Part shown: positions 19,862 to 50,116 of the stretch, piece after piece
Position numbering within the stretch: the first letter of the stretch is position 1
How the letters are laid out: the number at the start of each line of letters is the position of its first letter
DNA from: Peteryoungia aggregata LMG 23059
GTDB taxonomy: Bacteria > Pseudomonadota > Alphaproteobacteria > Rhizobiales > Rhizobiaceae
Length of the DNA: 64,000 nucleotides
Direction: 5' to 3'
NCBI RefSeq assembly: GCF_030814435.1
Contig: NZ_JAUSUW010000017.1
Span: forward strand, 1 to 64,000
Program-made: the position numbers and the translations under genes
Notes under the pieces: generated by a model
Told to the model about the DNA's origin: nothing
Seen by the model: the letters and a program-made list of their open reading frames with translations, nothing else
Database searches by the model: none

Positions 19862-20470
19862 ATGACCCTCGACTTCCTTCTGACCACCCTGATCATCGTC
19901 GCCACACCCGGAACCGGCGCACTCTACACGCTGGCCGCAGCCCTGGGCGGTGGCCGGCGTGATGCGCTTGTCGCCGCCTTCGGCTGCACGCTCGGCATCA
20001 TCCCGCACATGCTGGCCGCAGCCCTCGGCCTCGCCGCGCTCGTCGCCGCCGAGCCGCGCCTCTTCGAGGCGATCCGCTATGCCGGCATTGCCTATCTCGT
20101 CTGGATGGCGGTCGGCCTCTGGAGAAGCGGACTGGCGGGGGATATGACAGCCGAACCGAAACAGCGTGCCTCACGGATCATCCGCAAGGCGGTGCTGATC
20201 AACCTTCTGAATCCCAAGCTCTCGCTCTTCTTCCTGGCCTTCCTGCCGCAATTCGTCGATCCGGCAGATGCCCGTCCGCTCGCCACCATGGCGACCTTGA
20301 GCCTCGTCTTCATGGCCGTGACCTTCGTCGTCTTCGCGATCTACGGACTTGCAGCTGCCAGCATGCGACAGCGGCTCGTCACGCGCCCTGACAGGATGCG
20401 TGTCGTCAACCGGCTGCTCTCGGCAGGCTTTCTGCTGATGGCGGGAAGACTGGCGCTGGCACAAAGGTAG
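19862..20470 (+). CDS. LysE/RhtB-family amino acid or metabolite exporter
   Basis: The 202-residue inner-membrane protein has about six helices and the family signature TPGTGALYTLAAALGGGRRD at about 14-33, with LINLLNPKLSLFFLAFLPQFV in the middle. The start follows AGGAGACCTCCG. It exports amino acids or related small molecules; the substrate is unknown. It comes after the AraC gene on the same strand. Confidence 0.92.
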   Translation: MTLDFLLTTLIIVATPGTGALYTLAAALGGGRRDALVAAFGCTLGIIPHMLAAALGLAALVAAEPRLFEAIRYAGIAYLVWMAVGLWRSGLAGDMTAEPKQRASRIIRKAVLINLLNPKLSLFFLAFLPQFVDPADARPLATMATLSLVFMAVTFVVFAIYGLAAASMRQRLVTRPDRMRVVNRLLSAGFLLMAGRLALAQR

Positions 20471-20520
20471 CACGCCAGAAAAGCGATCGACCGGGGGGAT
20501 CCCCGGTCGCCGGAAGGAGC

Positions 20521-21066
20521 TCAGTGCCCCTCGAATTCCACAAGCGTGCGAACCTCGACGCCAAGCGCCTCCAGCTTCTTGCGGCCACCGAGTTCCGGCA
20601 GATCGATGACAAAGCAAGCCGAGACGACATCGGCCCCGATCTGGCGGAGCAGCTGAACTGCACCGACAGCCGTGCCGCCGGTGGCGATCAGGTCGTCGAC
20701 CAGGATCACCTTCTCGCCGGGCTTGACCGCGTCCATGTGGATCTCCATCTCGTCCACGCCATATTCCAGGCTGTAGGCAATCCGCACGGTCTCATGCGGC
20801 AGCTTCCCCTTCTTGCGGATCGGCACGAAGCCGGCAGACAGCTGATGCGCGACGGCACCGCCCAGGATGAAGCCACGCGCTTCCATGCCGGCGATCTTGT
20901 CGACCTTGAGCCCCACATAGGGTTGAACAAGCTCATCCACCGCGCGCCGAAACGCCCGCGCGTCCCCAAGCAGTGTGGTGATGTCGCGGAAGATGATCCC
21001 GGGCTTCGGATAGTCGGGAATCGAGCGGATCGAGCTGAGGAGGTAGTTCTGGCTTTCGGGCGTCAT
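20521..21066 (-). CDS. apt: Adenine phosphoribosyltransferase
   Basis: The 181-residue purine-salvage enzyme converts adenine and PRPP to AMP. The PRPP-binding motif is [17 protein letters not shown] (about 120-136). [20 protein letters not shown] at the N-terminus and [13 protein letters not shown] are family signatures. It lies 119 bp downstream of petC but behind a terminator, so it is likely to have its own promoter. Confidence 0.97.
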
Positions 21067-41327: not shown

Positions 41328-41487
41328 CTTTGCGTCCCGGTTTTGTCTTTAGTCCATAACAGTCACGAGATAGTCATTCGAAACGTCCTTGTCAGCCGTC
41401 CTCTCGCCAATAAGTTAGTTTCAGTAACATGCACCTCGCGCGTCCGTTCGATTCGCCGGACCAGGCCAACACCAATTGGAGCAGACC

Positions 41488-42501
41488 ATGGGCATGATGC
41501 CAAATCCCGATGTCGCACTGGATGAGAAGGCGATTGTCGCTGAGGCCGAAAAGGCGCTCGCTGACATTGCCACGATCCGCCAGGAAGTGGCGAAGGTAAT
41601 CTTCGGCCAGGAAAAGGTCGTCGAAAACACCCTGCTCGCCATCCTCTCCGGCGGCCATGCGCTGCTCGTCGGCGTTCCCGGCCTTGCCAAGACAAAGCTC
41701 GTCACCACACTCGGCACCGTTCTCGGCCTTGACGCGAACCGCATCCAGTTCACGCCCGACCTCATGCCCTCGGACATCCTCGGCACCGAAGTCATGGACC
41801 AGGACGACACGGGGCGCCGCTCCTTCCGCTTCGTCAAGGGTCCGGTCTTCGCCCAGCTGCTGATGGCCGACGAAATCAACCGCGCCAGCCCCCGCACCCA
41901 GTCTGCGCTCCTGCAGTCGATGCAGGAATATCACGTCACCATCGCCGGCCAGCCCTACCAGCTGCCCGCCCCCTTCCACGTGCTCGCGACCCAGAACCCC
42001 CTAGAGCAGGAAGGCACCTATCCGCTGCCGGAAGCCCAGCTTGACCGCTTCCTGCTGCAGGTCGACGTTCTCTATCCGGAACTCGCCGCCGAGCGGCAGA
42101 TCCTGCTGGAAACCACTGGTGTCAGCGACCGCCGCGCAACTGCCGTCATCTCAAGCGAGCGGCTGATGGAAATCCAGAAGCTGATCCGCCAGATGCCGGT
42201 TTCCGATACTGTCGTCGATGCCATCCTCTCGCTGGTCCGCTCCGCCCGCCCCGGCCATGGCAATGCATCCACCGACAAAAATGTCGCCTGGGGTCCAGGC
42301 CCCCGCGCAGGCCAGGCCCTCATGCTCTGCGCCCGAGCCCGGGCGCTTTATGAAGGCCGCCTTGCTCCCTCCATCGACGACGTGCATGCGCTCGCCGAAC
42401 CGGTGCTCGAGCACCGCATGGCGCTGACCTTCCCGGCCCGCGCCGAGGGCATGACCGTCCGCGACGTGATCGCGGGCCTCGTTTCCGACCTGCGCAAGTA
42501 A
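41488..42501 (+). CDS. MoxR-type AAA+ ATPase
   Basis: This 337-residue ATPase has Walker A GVPGLAKTK, Walker B LLMADEINRA and the MoxR segment ATQNPLEQEGTYPLPEAQLDRF. MoxR proteins act as chaperones for partners with vWA or related domains. The ATG at 41488 is preferred to a TTG four codons earlier because GGAGCAG is correctly placed for it. It opens a four-gene operon with DUF58 and two large membrane proteins. Confidence 0.95.
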   Translation: MGMMPNPDVALDEKAIVAEAEKALADIATIRQEVAKVIFGQEKVVENTLLAILSGGHALLVGVPGLAKTKLVTTLGTVLGLDANRIQFTPDLMPSDILGTEVMDQDDTGRRSFRFVKGPVFAQLLMADEINRASPRTQSALLQSMQEYHVTIAGQPYQLPAPFHVLATQNPLEQEGTYPLPEAQLDRFLLQVDVLYPELAAERQILLETTGVSDRRATAVISSERLMEIQKLIRQMPVSDTVVDAILSLVRSARPGHGNASTDKNVAWGPGPRAGQALMLCARARALYEGRLAPSIDDVHALAEPVLEHRMALTFPARAEGMTVRDVIAGLVSDLRK

Positions 42502-46261: not shown

Positions 46262-48331
46262 ATGACGCTCGAATTCGCCCCCTTCATTCCATGGATCGCC
46301 ATCGCCGCGCTCGCGGTGCTCGCGGTCGTCCTCTCCGTCCTCGGTTTCCTGCGCAACGTGCGCGGCACGGCCATCCGTCTTGCCGCCTCCATCGCCGTGC
46401 TTGCGGCCCTTGCCAACCCGCTCATCCTCCAGGAAGAGCGCGATCCGCTGACGACGGTCGTGCCCGTGATCGTCGACCGCAGCCAGAGCCAGCAGATCGC
46501 CGGCCGCGTCGAACAAACCGACCAGGCCCTGCAGGGCATCCGCGACCGCCTTGGCCGTTTCCCGAATATCGAGCCTAGGATCATCGAGGTCACCGACCCC
46601 GGCGACAGCGACGCCCCCTCCACCAAACTCTTCGAAGCTTTGGCTGCCGCGACCACCGACGTTCCGCCGGCCCGTGTCGGCGGGGCAATCTTCATCACCG
46701 ACGGCCAGGTGCATGACATCCCCGGTGAAAATCAGGCGCTTCCCTTCGACGCTCCGGTCCACTCCCTGATCACCGGCAAGGCCGACGAATTCGACCGCCG
46801 CATCGAAATCCTGCGCGCCCCGCGCTTCGGCATCGTCGATGAAGAACAGGAACTCACCTTCCGCGTCTTCGACGACGGCGAGGCCTCCAACCAGCCGGCC
46901 GACGTCTCGGTCAAGATGAACGGCGAAGACTTAGGCATCGTCCCGGCCGTTCCCGGCGCCGAAACCTCGTTTGCCTTCCGCGTCCCCCGTGGCGGTAACA
47001 ATGTCCTGGAATTCTCGGTCGCCGCGACGCCAGGCGAAGTCACCGATGTCAACAACCGCGCCATCCACCTGATCGAAGGCATCCGCCAGAACCTGCGCGT
47101 GCTGCTCGTCTCGGGCGAACCGCATGCCGGCGAGCGCGCCTGGCGCAACCTCTTGAAATCGGACGCCTCTGTCGACCTCGTCCACTTCACCATCCTGCGC
47201 CCGCCGGAAAAGCAGGACGGCACGCCGATCAACGAGCTGTCGCTCATCGCCTTCCCGACCCGCGAACTCTTCGTCGAAAAGATCAACGACTTCGACCTGA
47301 TCATCTTCGACCGCTACCAGCATCGCGGCGTTCTGCCGATCCTCTATTACGACTACATCGCCGAATATGTGCGCAATGGCGGTGCGCTTCTGATCGCAGC
47401 CGGCCCCGAACATGCCGGCCAGGATTCGATTGCGCTGACCCCTCTATCATCGGTCCTTCCCGCCACGCCGACCGGCGACGTGCATCAGGCAGGCTTCTAT
47501 CCACGCCTCTCCGATCAGGGCAAGCGCCACCCGGTCACGCGTGGCCTCGATGGGTCAGCCGTCGAGCCGCCGCAATGGGGCCGCTGGTTCCGCAGCGTCG
47601 ATGTGGGCCGGACCGACGGCGAAACCGTGATGACCGCCGATGGCGACCGGCCGCTGCTCGTGCTGAACCGCGCCAATGAAGGCCGCGTTGCCATGCTGCT
47701 CTCCGACCAGGGCTGGCTCTGGGCGCGCGGCTTTGAAGGCGGTGGCCCGCATGTCTCGCTCTATCGCCGCATTGCCCACTGGCTGATGAAGGAGCCGGAG
47801 CTTGAGGAAGAGGCGCTGAAGGCCCGCGCCACCGGTCGCACGCTCGAAGTCACCCGCCAGACCATCGGCGAGGCCCCAGGGCCCGCGACGATCACCACGC
47901 CCTCGGGCGAAACCATTGCGCTGAACCTCAACGAGATCCAGCCCGGCCTCTATCGCGGCGAGCGCCGGATGACCGAGACCGGCCTCTTCACCGTCACCAA
48001 CGGCGACTTCTCCACCCTCGTCCATGTCGGCGCAGTCGACGCGCCAGAATTCCGCGCGATGATCTCGACCACGGACACGCTTGTCCCCATCAGCGAGGAA
48101 ACCCGTGGCCTCACCGCCCGCCTCGACGACGGCGACAGCTCCGTCCGCATTCCAGATATCCTGCCGGTGCGCGGCGAAGTCCGCGTGGCCGACGACCGCC
48201 GCATGCTGATCCGCCTGACCGATGAAACGGTGCTCAAGGGCGTCAACACAATGCCGCTGTTTGCTGGTTTTGCCGGCTTGGGGATCTTGCTGCTGGCGGT
48301 ATCCGCCATGTGGTGGCGCGAGGGGCGGTAA
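46262..48331 (+). CDS. Large membrane protein of the MoxR operon
   Basis: This 689-residue protein has two N-terminal helices (about 5-30, 33-58), a long extracytoplasmic region with Ig-like and glutamine-amidotransferase-like folds (VLLVSGEPHAGERAWRNLL; GGALLIAAGPEHAG), and a C-terminal helix (about 665-685) followed by WWREGR. This layout matches the last gene of MoxR-DUF58-DUF4159 operons in Rhizobiales. Its precise function is unknown. It likely forms a complex with the two upstream products. Confidence 0.88.
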   Translation: MTLEFAPFIPWIAIAALAVLAVVLSVLGFLRNVRGTAIRLAASIAVLAALANPLILQEERDPLTTVVPVIVDRSQSQQIAGRVEQTDQALQGIRDRLGRFPNIEPRIIEVTDPGDSDAPSTKLFEALAAATTDVPPARVGGAIFITDGQVHDIPGENQALPFDAPVHSLITGKADEFDRRIEILRAPRFGIVDEEQELTFRVFDDGEASNQPADVSVKMNGEDLGIVPAVPGAETSFAFRVPRGGNNVLEFSVAATPGEVTDVNNRAIHLIEGIRQNLRVLLVSGEPHAGERAWRNLLKSDASVDLVHFTILRPPEKQDGTPINELSLIAFPTRELFVEKINDFDLIIFDRYQHRGVLPILYYDYIAEYVRNGGALLIAAGPEHAGQDSIALTPLSSVLPATPTGDVHQAGFYPRLSDQGKRHPVTRGLDGSAVEPPQWGRWFRSVDVGRTDGETVMTADGDRPLLVLNRANEGRVAMLLSDQGWLWARGFEGGGPHVSLYRRIAHWLMKEPELEEEALKARATGRTLEVTRQTIGEAPGPATITTPSGETIALNLNEIQPGLYRGERRMTETGLFTVTNGDFSTLVHVGAVDAPEFRAMISTTDTLVPISEETRGLTARLDDGDSSVRIPDILPVRGEVRVADDRRMLIRLTDETVLKGVNTMPLFAGFAGLGILLLAVSAMWWREGR

Positions 48332-48386
48332 GGCTTGGCAAGCGGGCCATCTGGATTCCCCCGTGTTTTCCCGCTATGGTAGCGAC

Positions 48387-48584
48387 ATGACAAAAGCTGA
48401 CCTCAAGCAGACACAGACAGGACAATGGATGCTGCGCGATCCGCGCACAGGCCAGTATGTCGAACTGCGCGGTGCGAACTCCATGAAGGTTTCGGACCTG
48501 CCGTTGAGGAAGGGGATCGATCTGACCAAGCCGATCGCAGCTCAGGCTCTGGATGCCGGTTCAGGCTCGCAAAAATCTAAGTAG
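48387..48584 (+). CDS. Putative antitoxin partner of the PIN toxin
   Basis: The 65-residue protein (KADLKQTQTGQWMLRDPRTG; later ELRGANSMKVSDLPLRKG) sits 8 bp before a PIN-domain gene. It resembles neither Phd, VapB, AbrB nor RHH antitoxins: no DNA-binding motif is visible, and the first half looks like a small beta hairpin, the second unstructured and basic. The first ATG was used; no strong ribosome site precedes it. Its antitoxin role is inferred only from position and size. Confidence 0.55.
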   Translation: MTKADLKQTQTGQWMLRDPRTGQYVELRGANSMKVSDLPLRKGIDLTKPIAAQALDAGSGSQKSK

Positions 48585-48592
48585 CACCAGCT

Positions 48593-49024
48593 ATGGCCGG
48601 AGCGCTTCTCGACACCCACGCGCTCTACTGGTTGATCACCGCAGCAAGCACCATGTCGCAGGAAGCCCTTTTGGCAATCGCCGAAAGCCAGACATCGAAG
48701 CGGCTCTTGATATCGCCGATAAGCGCCTGGGAACTCTCGCTGGCCGCCCTAAAGCCGGCGCACAGAGACCCGATACTTCTGGATGACAAGTCGCCTTCAC
48801 GCTGGTTTTCGTTGGCAAAGGCCGCAACCGGCGCAAGGGTCGCACCTATACACCACAGAATTGCCTGCGAAGCCGCAACAGTGGTGGTCGACACAGGACA
48901 CAAGGACCCCGGCGATTGTTATTTGATTGCAACGTCGCGCGTCAAAAACATACCGCTGATTACCCGAGATCGGACACTGATCAAACTTGCCGCCAAGGGC
49001 CACCTAGAGGTCATCCGGTGTTGA
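48593..49024 (+). CDS. PIN-domain ribonuclease toxin (VapC-like)
   Basis: The 143-residue protein keeps the PIN acidic residues: Asp in GALLDTHALYWL (about 7), Glu in ISAWELSLAA (about 47), Asp in HKDPGDCYLIATS (about 105-110) and Asp in PLITRD. It should cut RNA, and the preceding 65-residue gene is the candidate neutraliser. The ATG lies 8 bp after that gene's stop without a ribosome site of its own, so coupled translation is likely. It follows the MoxR operon but is oriented the same way. Confidence 0.88.
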   Translation: MAGALLDTHALYWLITAASTMSQEALLAIAESQTSKRLLISPISAWELSLAALKPAHRDPILLDDKSPSRWFSLAKAATGARVAPIHHRIACEAATVVVDTGHKDPGDCYLIATSRVKNIPLITRDRTLIKLAAKGHLEVIRC

Positions 49025-49082
49025 TGCGAAGAAACCTCAACATATGCACCCACGCCATTCCATTTTCGGGAGGAGAGGACCG

Positions 49083-49292
49083 ATGAAGGACCAGCCCCAC
49101 AACGACGCGATGGCAAGCATCTTCCGCGAAGACCCGACATTGGCAGCAGCGACACTGGACACGATCCTTGCCGATGGCGACCAGGGAGAATTGCTCGTGG
49201 CCGTGCGGCAAATCAACATGGCCTTCGGCGGAACATCCGTGAGCGCGACGCCGCGCAGTGACGATCCCCCAAGCTCCGTCGGTTCAACCTGA
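49083..49292 (+). pseudogene. Truncated HigA-like antitoxin-type regulator
   Basis: The N-terminal 45 residues (MASIFREDPTLAAATLDTIL then DGDQGELLVAVRQINMAFGG) match the start of the addiction-module antidote/HTH regulators that normally reach about 95-100 residues. The helix-turn-helix half is missing, replaced by an unrelated 18-residue tail (SVSATPRSDDPPSSVGST). It is therefore probably a broken remnant. A GGAGAGGACCG ribosome site remains. Its last base overlaps the start of the next gene by one base. Confidence 0.65.
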
Positions 49293-50116
49293 TGCCAGCA
49301 AAGGCCCGCCCCTTGAAGCTTCTTTCCCTGAATTGCTGGGCAGGGCGCCTCTTCCCCTCGCTCCGTGACTATATCCTGTCGGAAAATGCCGACGTCATCT
49401 GCCTTCAGGAAGTCCTGCGATCGGACACCACCGAAGCGGAATGGGTGACCTATCGGGATGGTCATTTGGAATACCAGCAGCGCGCCAACCTCTTTGAAGA
49501 CATGCGCGCCGTTCTCCCTGATCACGACGCCTTCTTCTGCACCTCCATGCGCGGCGAACTCAGCGCAGACACTGGGCCCGTCTGGGCAGAATTCGGCCTG
49601 GCAACCTTCGTGCGACGAGGACTTCCGGTGATCGGCCAGGCCATGGACTTTATCCATGACCAATACCGCCACGACGGCTGGGGACCCCACCCCCGCCCCC
49701 GCAACGCCCATGTCGTCAGGATCCATGACCCCGAAACGGGAAAGCCAACGACCATCGCCCACCTGCACGGCCTGCGTCGCGAGGATGGCAAGCACGACAC
49801 GCCGGAACGTCTGGCGCAGGCCCATCAGCTGGTCGGTTTGATCAATCGCCTCTGGCGTCCGAATGACAAGCTCATCGTCTGTGGCGACTTGAACCTCATG
49901 CCCGACAGCGCCACCTTCGAGATCCTGCAATCGCTCGGACTGACGGACCTGGTGACGGCAGGCGCCTTCACGGGGACACGAACGTCCTACTATACAAAGC
50001 CGGAACGGTTTGCGGATTACATCCTGGTGAGCCGTCAGATCGATGTCTCCCGCTTCGAGGTCATCCGCGACCCCGAAGTCTCCGATCATTGCCCGCTCCT
50101 CCTGGAGTTCACCTGA
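49292..50116 (+). CDS. Endonuclease/exonuclease/phosphatase-family hydrolase
   Basis: The 274-residue protein has the EEP fold motifs LLSLNCWAGRL, VICLQEVL (metal Glu), IVCGDLNLMPDS and VSDHCPLLLEF. It lacks a signal peptide and is cytosolic. The family covers DNA repair exonucleases, phosphoinositide phosphatases and sphingomyelinases; the substrate is unknown. Its start overlaps the broken antitoxin-like gene. Confidence 0.9.
   Translation: MPAKARPLKLLSLNCWAGRLFPSLRDYILSENADVICLQEVLRSDTTEAEWVTYRDGHLEYQQRANLFEDMRAVLPDHDAFFCTSMRGELSADTGPVWAEFGLATFVRRGLPVIGQAMDFIHDQYRHDGWGPHPRPRNAHVVRIHDPETGKPTTIAHLHGLRREDGKHDTPERLAQAHQLVGLINRLWRPNDKLIVCGDLNLMPDSATFEILQSLGLTDLVTAGAFTGTRTSYYTKPERFADYILVSRQIDVSRFEVIRDPEVSDHCPLLLEFT

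Follow-up and report, generated by a model that had tools for sequence, protein, structure and literature searches.

The locus analysed here lies in a 64,000-nucleotide stretch of the genome of Peteryoungia aggregata LMG 23059 (contig NZ_JAUSUW010000017.1, positions 1 to 64,000), to which we refer as the window. An intact gene for a PIN-domain protein is preceded, with 8 bp between the stop codon of the one and the start of the other, by a gene for a protein of 65 residues, an arrangement described in a first-pass annotation and borne out by the coordinates of the open reading frames (Table 1). The pair is followed by a truncated antidote gene of the HI1420/HigA kind; upstream lie a BatA/DUF4159 gene and then a gene for a 689-residue protein, and, farther away, the open reading frame at 41476-42501, which we take to encode MoxR.

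Table 1. Genes and predicted signals at the PIN locus of the window
Feature	Coordinates	Strand	Remarks
Small gene, 65 aa, ATG start; predicted headless VapB-like antitoxin gene	48387..48584	+	
PIN-domain toxin gene (VapC-like), 143 aa	48593..49024	+	D7, E47, D105, D108 and D126 invariant in 12 aligned sequences
Truncated HI1420/HigA-like antidote gene, 69 aa, decaying in the window	49083..49292	+	
RDxxTGxxVxxRG, conserved segment (residues 17-29) where a DNA-binding head would be expected	48435..48473	+	From alignments
Predicted toxin-binding tail, residues 31-54, NSMKVSDLPLRKGIDLTKPIAAQA	48477..48548	+	hhalign to tails of headed antitoxins
Predicted -35 element CTGGAT, 17 nt 5' of the -10 element	48351..48356	+	Fit to the S. 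meliloti consensus
Predicted -10 element CTATGGT, ending 6 nt before the ATG	48374..48380	+	TANNNT at -12
Gene for a 689-residue protein, downstream of the BatA/DUF4159 gene, that borders the insertion site	46262..48331	+	
Flanking gene of the exo/endonuclease/phosphatase family	49292..50116	+	

The PIN protein of the window matches Pfam PF01850 (E 1.1e-13), and, with its AlphaFold model (pLDDT 90.8) as the query, the best-ranked solved folds were the VapC toxins in VapBC complexes, 3h87 and 3tnd among them. Sequence searches against solved structures returned one unrelated match for the protein (E 0.78) and none at E 0.01 for the PIN profile. Conserved acidic residues, which a PIN toxin of a VapBC module should possess, are present, and from these intact residues and the family assignment the protein is predicted to be a VapC-like RNase. 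In 6 of the 12 copies of the first set, with starts assigned by protein alignment, the PIN gene begins with TTG or GTG. Among 21 pairs of 7 genomes, the dN/dS ratio of the PIN gene was 0.06-0.18 in the 17 pairs where it was computable, and that of the 38-codon core of the small gene was 0-0.29, with synonymous sites saturated in many of the 21 pairs. Because these ratios are low and the adjacency of the two genes is kept in other species, both appear to be more than chance open reading frames, and the comparison of the sequences indicates that both are under selection.

The 65-residue protein matched nothing above the curated cutoffs of Pfam and NCBIfam. A scan of 16 aligned members of its family detected no antitoxin or DNA-binding model, which upholds the original observation that the small partner carries no recognisable DNA-binding head; by the same scan, the N-terminal DNA-binding domain that serves autoregulation in VapBC modules has no counterpart in these 16 proteins. 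The alignments define a family core, RDxxTGxxVxVRGAxxMK..L.L.KGIDLTKPIA.Q, and the structure model of the small protein is of low confidence (pLDDT 66, pTM 0.32). The PADLOC model PDC-S38 was weakly matched by 5 of the 16 members (best E 6.1e-5; 14.6 bits over residues 7-27 for the window protein) and had no match in 21 genomes or in 14 control genomes. DUF4585, PuhC and GlgA were considered as the identity of the small protein and rejected, the matches being weak.

The first-pass annotation also held the partner to be unlike any usual VapC antitoxin, and this part of the description has to be revised. The C-terminal half of the protein aligns with the tails of antitoxin-like partners that carry HTH, DUF7662 or Phd heads and accompany more distant PIN proteins. 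These distant PINs (18 in a sample of 150 genomes and 2 on plasmids) are preceded by genes for partner proteins of about 77-161 residues, whose heads Pfam identifies as HTH in 12, DUF7662 in 3 and Phd/YefM in 5; the head matches of 18 of the 20 exceed the curated cutoff, and the 2 Phd matches below it belong to proteins annotated as Phd/YefM in their records. All 15 partners with HTH or DUF7662 heads end in a tail of the form M/L-x-G-T ... D-L-T-x-P (for example, GCMKGTITIMPGTDLTAPTDPEW), and in the 5 with Phd heads M/L-x-G-T/S is present and the sequence after it has diverged. The D-L-T-x-P element is found in none of the 7 Phd-headed partners examined, two of which (L077 and L078) also lack the G-T.

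Residues 31-54 of the window protein align to the headed tails with a profile-profile E of 5.4e-6 (12 tails). When the whole small family was compared with 18 tails in hhalign, the E was 1.9e-6 and the score 29.7, as against 15.5 for the best of 200 column shuffles (0/200). A profile of the tails scores all 16 small proteins, the score of the window protein being reached in 49 of 32000 shuffles and that of the best member in 1 of 32000; by itself, the window protein obtains just 4.2 bits against this profile. The tail profile and the hhalign comparison used 18 of the 20 tails (L044 and L052 were left out), and L077 and L078 entered no profile. Searches of solved structures with the small family and with the tail yielded nothing beyond weak, unrelated matches. 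The match, short as it is (about 24 residues), would provide the C-terminal segment related to VapB-type partners that is expected in a VapBC antitoxin. Given this kinship of the tail, the pair looks like VapBC with a headless antitoxin and less like the distinct type of toxin-antitoxin system that had been proposed; the small protein is best read as what is left of a VapB-like antitoxin, namely the tail and the short RDxxTGxxVxxRG segment. The discussion in PMC10440598 describes a linear neutralising motif that can be separated from the DNA-binding domain; the portions of the literature that were searched contained no headless VapB belonging to this family.

The genome of the window itself contains a headed relative, an HTH antitoxin bearing the shared tail motif (E 1.4e-16), beside a PIN gene on contig C6 (20374-20890; L051, L109), with the PIN at 20483-20890 and the antitoxin tail at 20374-20481. 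In three partners (L037, L041 and L042), Pfam DUF7662 (E 3e-13, 2e-17 and 7e-18, respectively) makes up the N-terminal portion of antitoxins that belong to this PIN group, and it is probably a DNA-binding antitoxin head domain.

With duplicates and chance matches dropped, relatives of the small protein occur at no fewer than 33 places, the window included: 12 in the 150-genome sample, at least 2 in genome contigs (L015 and L017), 4 on plasmids and 15 in a Sphingomonas group, the genus-level group of L017, sampled by 201 genomes. The scan of genome contigs recovered at least 5 loci, 3 of them duplicating the 150-genome sample, and the Sphingomonas-group search recovered 17 matches, from which the one in the genome of L017 and one chance match were subtracted; L064 and L065, 2 of the 15 remaining copies, look identical. 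No relatives were found in phages or viral contigs, and order- and class-wide samples (397 and 385 genomes, searched with a 12-row alignment) yielded only the window copy and L018, a chance match that lies, by eye, inside an RND-like open reading frame. The small-protein family looks rare. Matches in G012, G033, G054 and G059 (E about 0.003, in 322-aa frames) and L069, at the edge of an 859-aa frame, were likewise rejected as chance. Two of the plasmid copies are annotated as 'hypothetical protein'.

A PIN gene lies directly downstream of the small gene at 19 of the 33 places; at the other 14, PIN searches detected no close PIN beside the small gene or elsewhere in the genome or plasmid. Viewed from the toxin, the association is of a different kind. 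In the 150 genomes, each of the 10 close PINs (E <=4.9e-62, the remaining 18 matches falling between 8.0e-19 and 5.8e-13) has the small gene directly upstream, and so does each of the 7 close PINs in the 201 Sphingomonas-group genomes (E <=3.8e-36), where the other 2 PINs, L077 and L078 (E near 1e-21), have Phd-like partners as judged by eye. Across the two samples, 17 of 17 close PINs are thus preceded by the small gene, in one case, G005, with a stop codon in it. Frequent homologues without a PIN gene had been named beforehand as evidence against a toxin-antitoxin pair, and such homologues do exist in number (14 of 33); however, the asymmetry, with every close PIN paired and many small genes alone, is what would be expected of a toxin and its antidote and fits an antitoxin.

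The two genes are separated by -1 to 13 bp in the 19 linked copies, in agreement with the small, co-directional and nearly overlapping upstream gene typical of VapBC. The protein distances of the small protein and the PIN are correlated (Mantel r 0.85 for 19 pairs, 0 of 10000 permutations; r 0.81 for 16 non-redundant pairs), a parallel divergence that linkage alone would also produce. In G043, the PIN gene is deleted and the small gene is damaged in its start and frame. In G005 (Rhizobium sp. AQ_MP; L013, 5001-5201), codon 48 of the small gene is an in-frame TAG and the PIN gene is intact. A strongly toxic PIN would not easily be tolerated in this state unless neither gene is expressed, the remaining 47 residues are enough or the TAG reflects an error in the sequence.

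Some of the solitary copies are unusual in other ways. In G017 (L011, 1279-1641), where there is no PIN nearby, the core of the small protein is in frame with an N-terminal stretch that we take to be ParD-like, a stretch without a Pfam RHH match; we read this fusion, or debris, as degradation. Four diverged solitary copies of the Sphingomonas group (L064-L067) have no PIN, 3 of the 4 lack the -12 box described below, and they may possibly serve another use.

The pair is a variable insertion. Among 22 homologous sites in the genus group of the window, 3 contain the pair and 19 contain neither gene within 1.5 kb downstream (about 0.5 kb in L093), and the flanking protein is 95-96% identical at four of the pair-less sites. 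The HigA-like gene is found at 5 of the 33 family loci, all in this same genus group. That it is broken in the window, as annotated initially, is confirmed by its length (69 aa, compared to 107 residues in G008 and G034, where it is complete) and by its score of 18.1 bits against PF21716 (dnstrm_HI1420), below the cutoff of 27 bits that a full-length relative exceeds (39.6 bits). The full-length copies have a dN/dS of 0.16, based on only 6 changes; between the window genome and G005, where the gene is truncated, codons 1-49 give a ratio of about 1.2 (8 nonsynonymous and 2 synonymous changes). The gene is absent from G040, where the exo/endonuclease/phosphatase-family gene directly follows the PIN, and in G043, which lost the PIN, it is alignable over residues 13-90, with a frame change near the start. 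No RelE/HigB-type toxin was picked out among the open reading frames of at least 40 aa listed between 44000 and 52500, profiles having been run on part of them. A conserved third gene for a regulator, the mark of a three-component system, is accordingly not present across the family, and the HigA-like gene would be a passenger or a former regulator rather than a needed part. Of the suggestion that the locus is a patchwork of two former systems, the HigA remnant survives; the small gene and the PIN gene do not fit it, recurring as a unit in Rhizobiaceae and in a Sphingomonas group.

The region upstream of the small gene displays a signal at a fixed distance from the start codon. Of the first 16 copies, 13 have a TANNNT box precisely at -12, as do 8 of ten chosen lineages, compared to at most 3 in 2000 shuffles, and the box recurs in 6 of 7 PIN-linked copies of the Sphingomonas group, which are independent of the discovery set. 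Altogether, the box is present in 16 of the 19 PIN-linked copies and in 6 of the 12 solitary copies with a placeable start, a count that leaves out G043, whose start is lost, and G017, whose start is fused. Solitary sphingomonad copies in L017 (5410-6432), L022 and L019, near Abi_2 genes or fragments, keep it. A Shine-Dalgarno-like core is missing from 18 of the 19 PIN-linked copies, whereas the 20 headed relatives, with start codons chosen by hand, have such a core in 17 cases and the -12 box in none. For S. meliloti, the promoter consensus CTTGAC-N17-CTATAT is given in PMC2573895, and 171 mapped leaderless transcripts that start at AUG are mentioned in PMC3616915. Placed in the -12 register, this consensus has on average 7.63 of 12 positions matched in the 19 PIN-linked copies, compared to 1.95-4.47 in 26 other registers. 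The position of the box, combined with the lack of a Shine-Dalgarno core, suggests that transcription starts on the ATG itself and that the mRNA of the small gene is probably leaderless.

Taken together, these observations make it probable, in our judgement, that the locus is a type II toxin-antitoxin module of the VapBC kind, with a headless and apparently leaderless antitoxin. The lack of a DNA-binding head would make it a variant that works like VapBC rather than a canonical member. Under this model, the 65-residue protein would be the antitoxin of the PIN toxin and would bind and neutralise it through the C-terminal tail that the antitoxins of related PINs carry behind their heads. Because the head is missing, the antitoxin would probably be unable to repress its own promoter by itself, and the balance of expression could instead be set by the conserved promoter, with transcription predicted to begin on the antitoxin ATG and the toxin made by ribosomes that re-initiate downstream, often at weak start codons. 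In the lineage of the window, an HI1420-type gene appears to have been added downstream and to be decaying now. A further elaboration, to which we assign a low probability, is control at the level of translation: a leaderless antitoxin mRNA might stay usable when the PIN damages normal initiation (for example, the initiator tRNA or the end of 16S rRNA), such that the toxin would favour resynthesis of its antitoxin, with RDxxTGxxVxxRG as a new regulatory or RNA-binding element.

The alternatives differ mainly in where they place the regulation. The small protein might bind DNA after all, its N-terminal 28 residues folding into a compact, unrecognised beta-ribbon that would dimerise and repress the operon; the module would then be a VapBC with ordinary autoregulation in which only the head is new. 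Antitoxins mostly have an N-terminal DNA-binding domain, according to a passage of PMC4803016, and the RDxxTGxxVxxRG segment is conserved and predicted, in the low-confidence model, to form short strands. However, no DNA-binding model was detected in the 16 members scanned, and no conserved operator palindrome is apparent upstream by eye. In most members, moreover, at most about 30 residues precede the tail, and known DNA-binding heads are longer than that. We regard a hidden head as unlikely. If regulation were instead delegated to the downstream HI1420-type protein, which would stand in for the head, in the manner of PaaR in the PaaA-ParE system, and would be broken in the window, one could point to the full-length genes of G008 and G034, with their low dN/dS over 6 changes, and to the PaaA and epsilon antitoxins, which, according to PMC5086665 and PMC4803016, have no DNA-binding domain and use a third protein. 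Such a three-part system is improbable here, the gene being confined to 5 of 33 loci in one genus group, truncated in the window genome and G005, and absent from G040.

The decay of the HI1420 gene, the stop codon in G005 and the lack of both genes at most homologous sites might also be taken to indicate that the locus is a decaying remnant of a toxin-antitoxin system with no present function in this strain. Both genes of the window are intact, however, with dN/dS well below 1 and with the promoter and the catalytic residues kept, and we consider a mere remnant quite unlikely. Finally, the small protein might be a general partner of RNases that also serves Abi proteins, which we take to be HEPN-like, in sphingomonads: L017 has an Abi_2 gene on its downstream side, and H4 and H1 each have an Abi gene, or a fragment of one, nearby. 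Among plasmid records, however, Abi_2 homologues occur on 183 and the small gene on 4, with none among the best 20 of the 183 Abi records, and a single lineage may explain the Abi neighbourhood. We rejected an Abi partnership on this co-occurrence and consider the idea of a general RNase partner extremely improbable.

The favoured reading, a VapBC variant with a headless antitoxin, has partial parallels among known systems. With the VapBC modules whose antitoxins have HTH, DUF7662 or Phd heads, the module shares the PIN superfamily, the antitoxin position directly upstream and the related C-terminal tail; it differs in that the headed antitoxins, of about 77-161 aa, include an N-terminal domain and are in most cases preceded by a Shine-Dalgarno core (17/20), whereas those of the window type measure 53-79 aa (PIN-linked copies with intact frames), have no head and are predicted to be leaderless. 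PaaR-PaaA-ParE and omega-epsilon-zeta also include an antitoxin without a DNA-binding domain, according to passages of PMC5086665 and PMC4803016, but their toxins and antitoxins are different, and there is no conserved third gene here. The MenA1 antitoxin of MenAT1, as portrayed in an excerpt of PMC10435456, has 68 residues and is predicted to lack a DNA-binding domain, although its toxin is a nucleotidyltransferase and not a PIN protein, and the likeness is one of size and predicted domain content. PADLOC PDC-S38, the model weakly matched by 5 of the 16 family members, carries no stated function.

The usual picture of a type II antitoxin joins a DNA-binding head to a toxin-binding tail, with control exerted through repression by the complex. 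In the family described here, the tail alone appears to be kept, under selection, in two groups of Alphaproteobacteria, with the promoter placed on the start codon. If this reading is correct, neutralisation would be separated from autoregulation in a very common class of toxin-antitoxin systems, and proteins of just 53-79 residues would be natural inhibitors of VapC. It would also imply a probable antitoxin role for entries recorded as 'hypothetical protein', such as the two plasmid copies, and would point to Pfam DUF7662 as a head domain of antitoxins.
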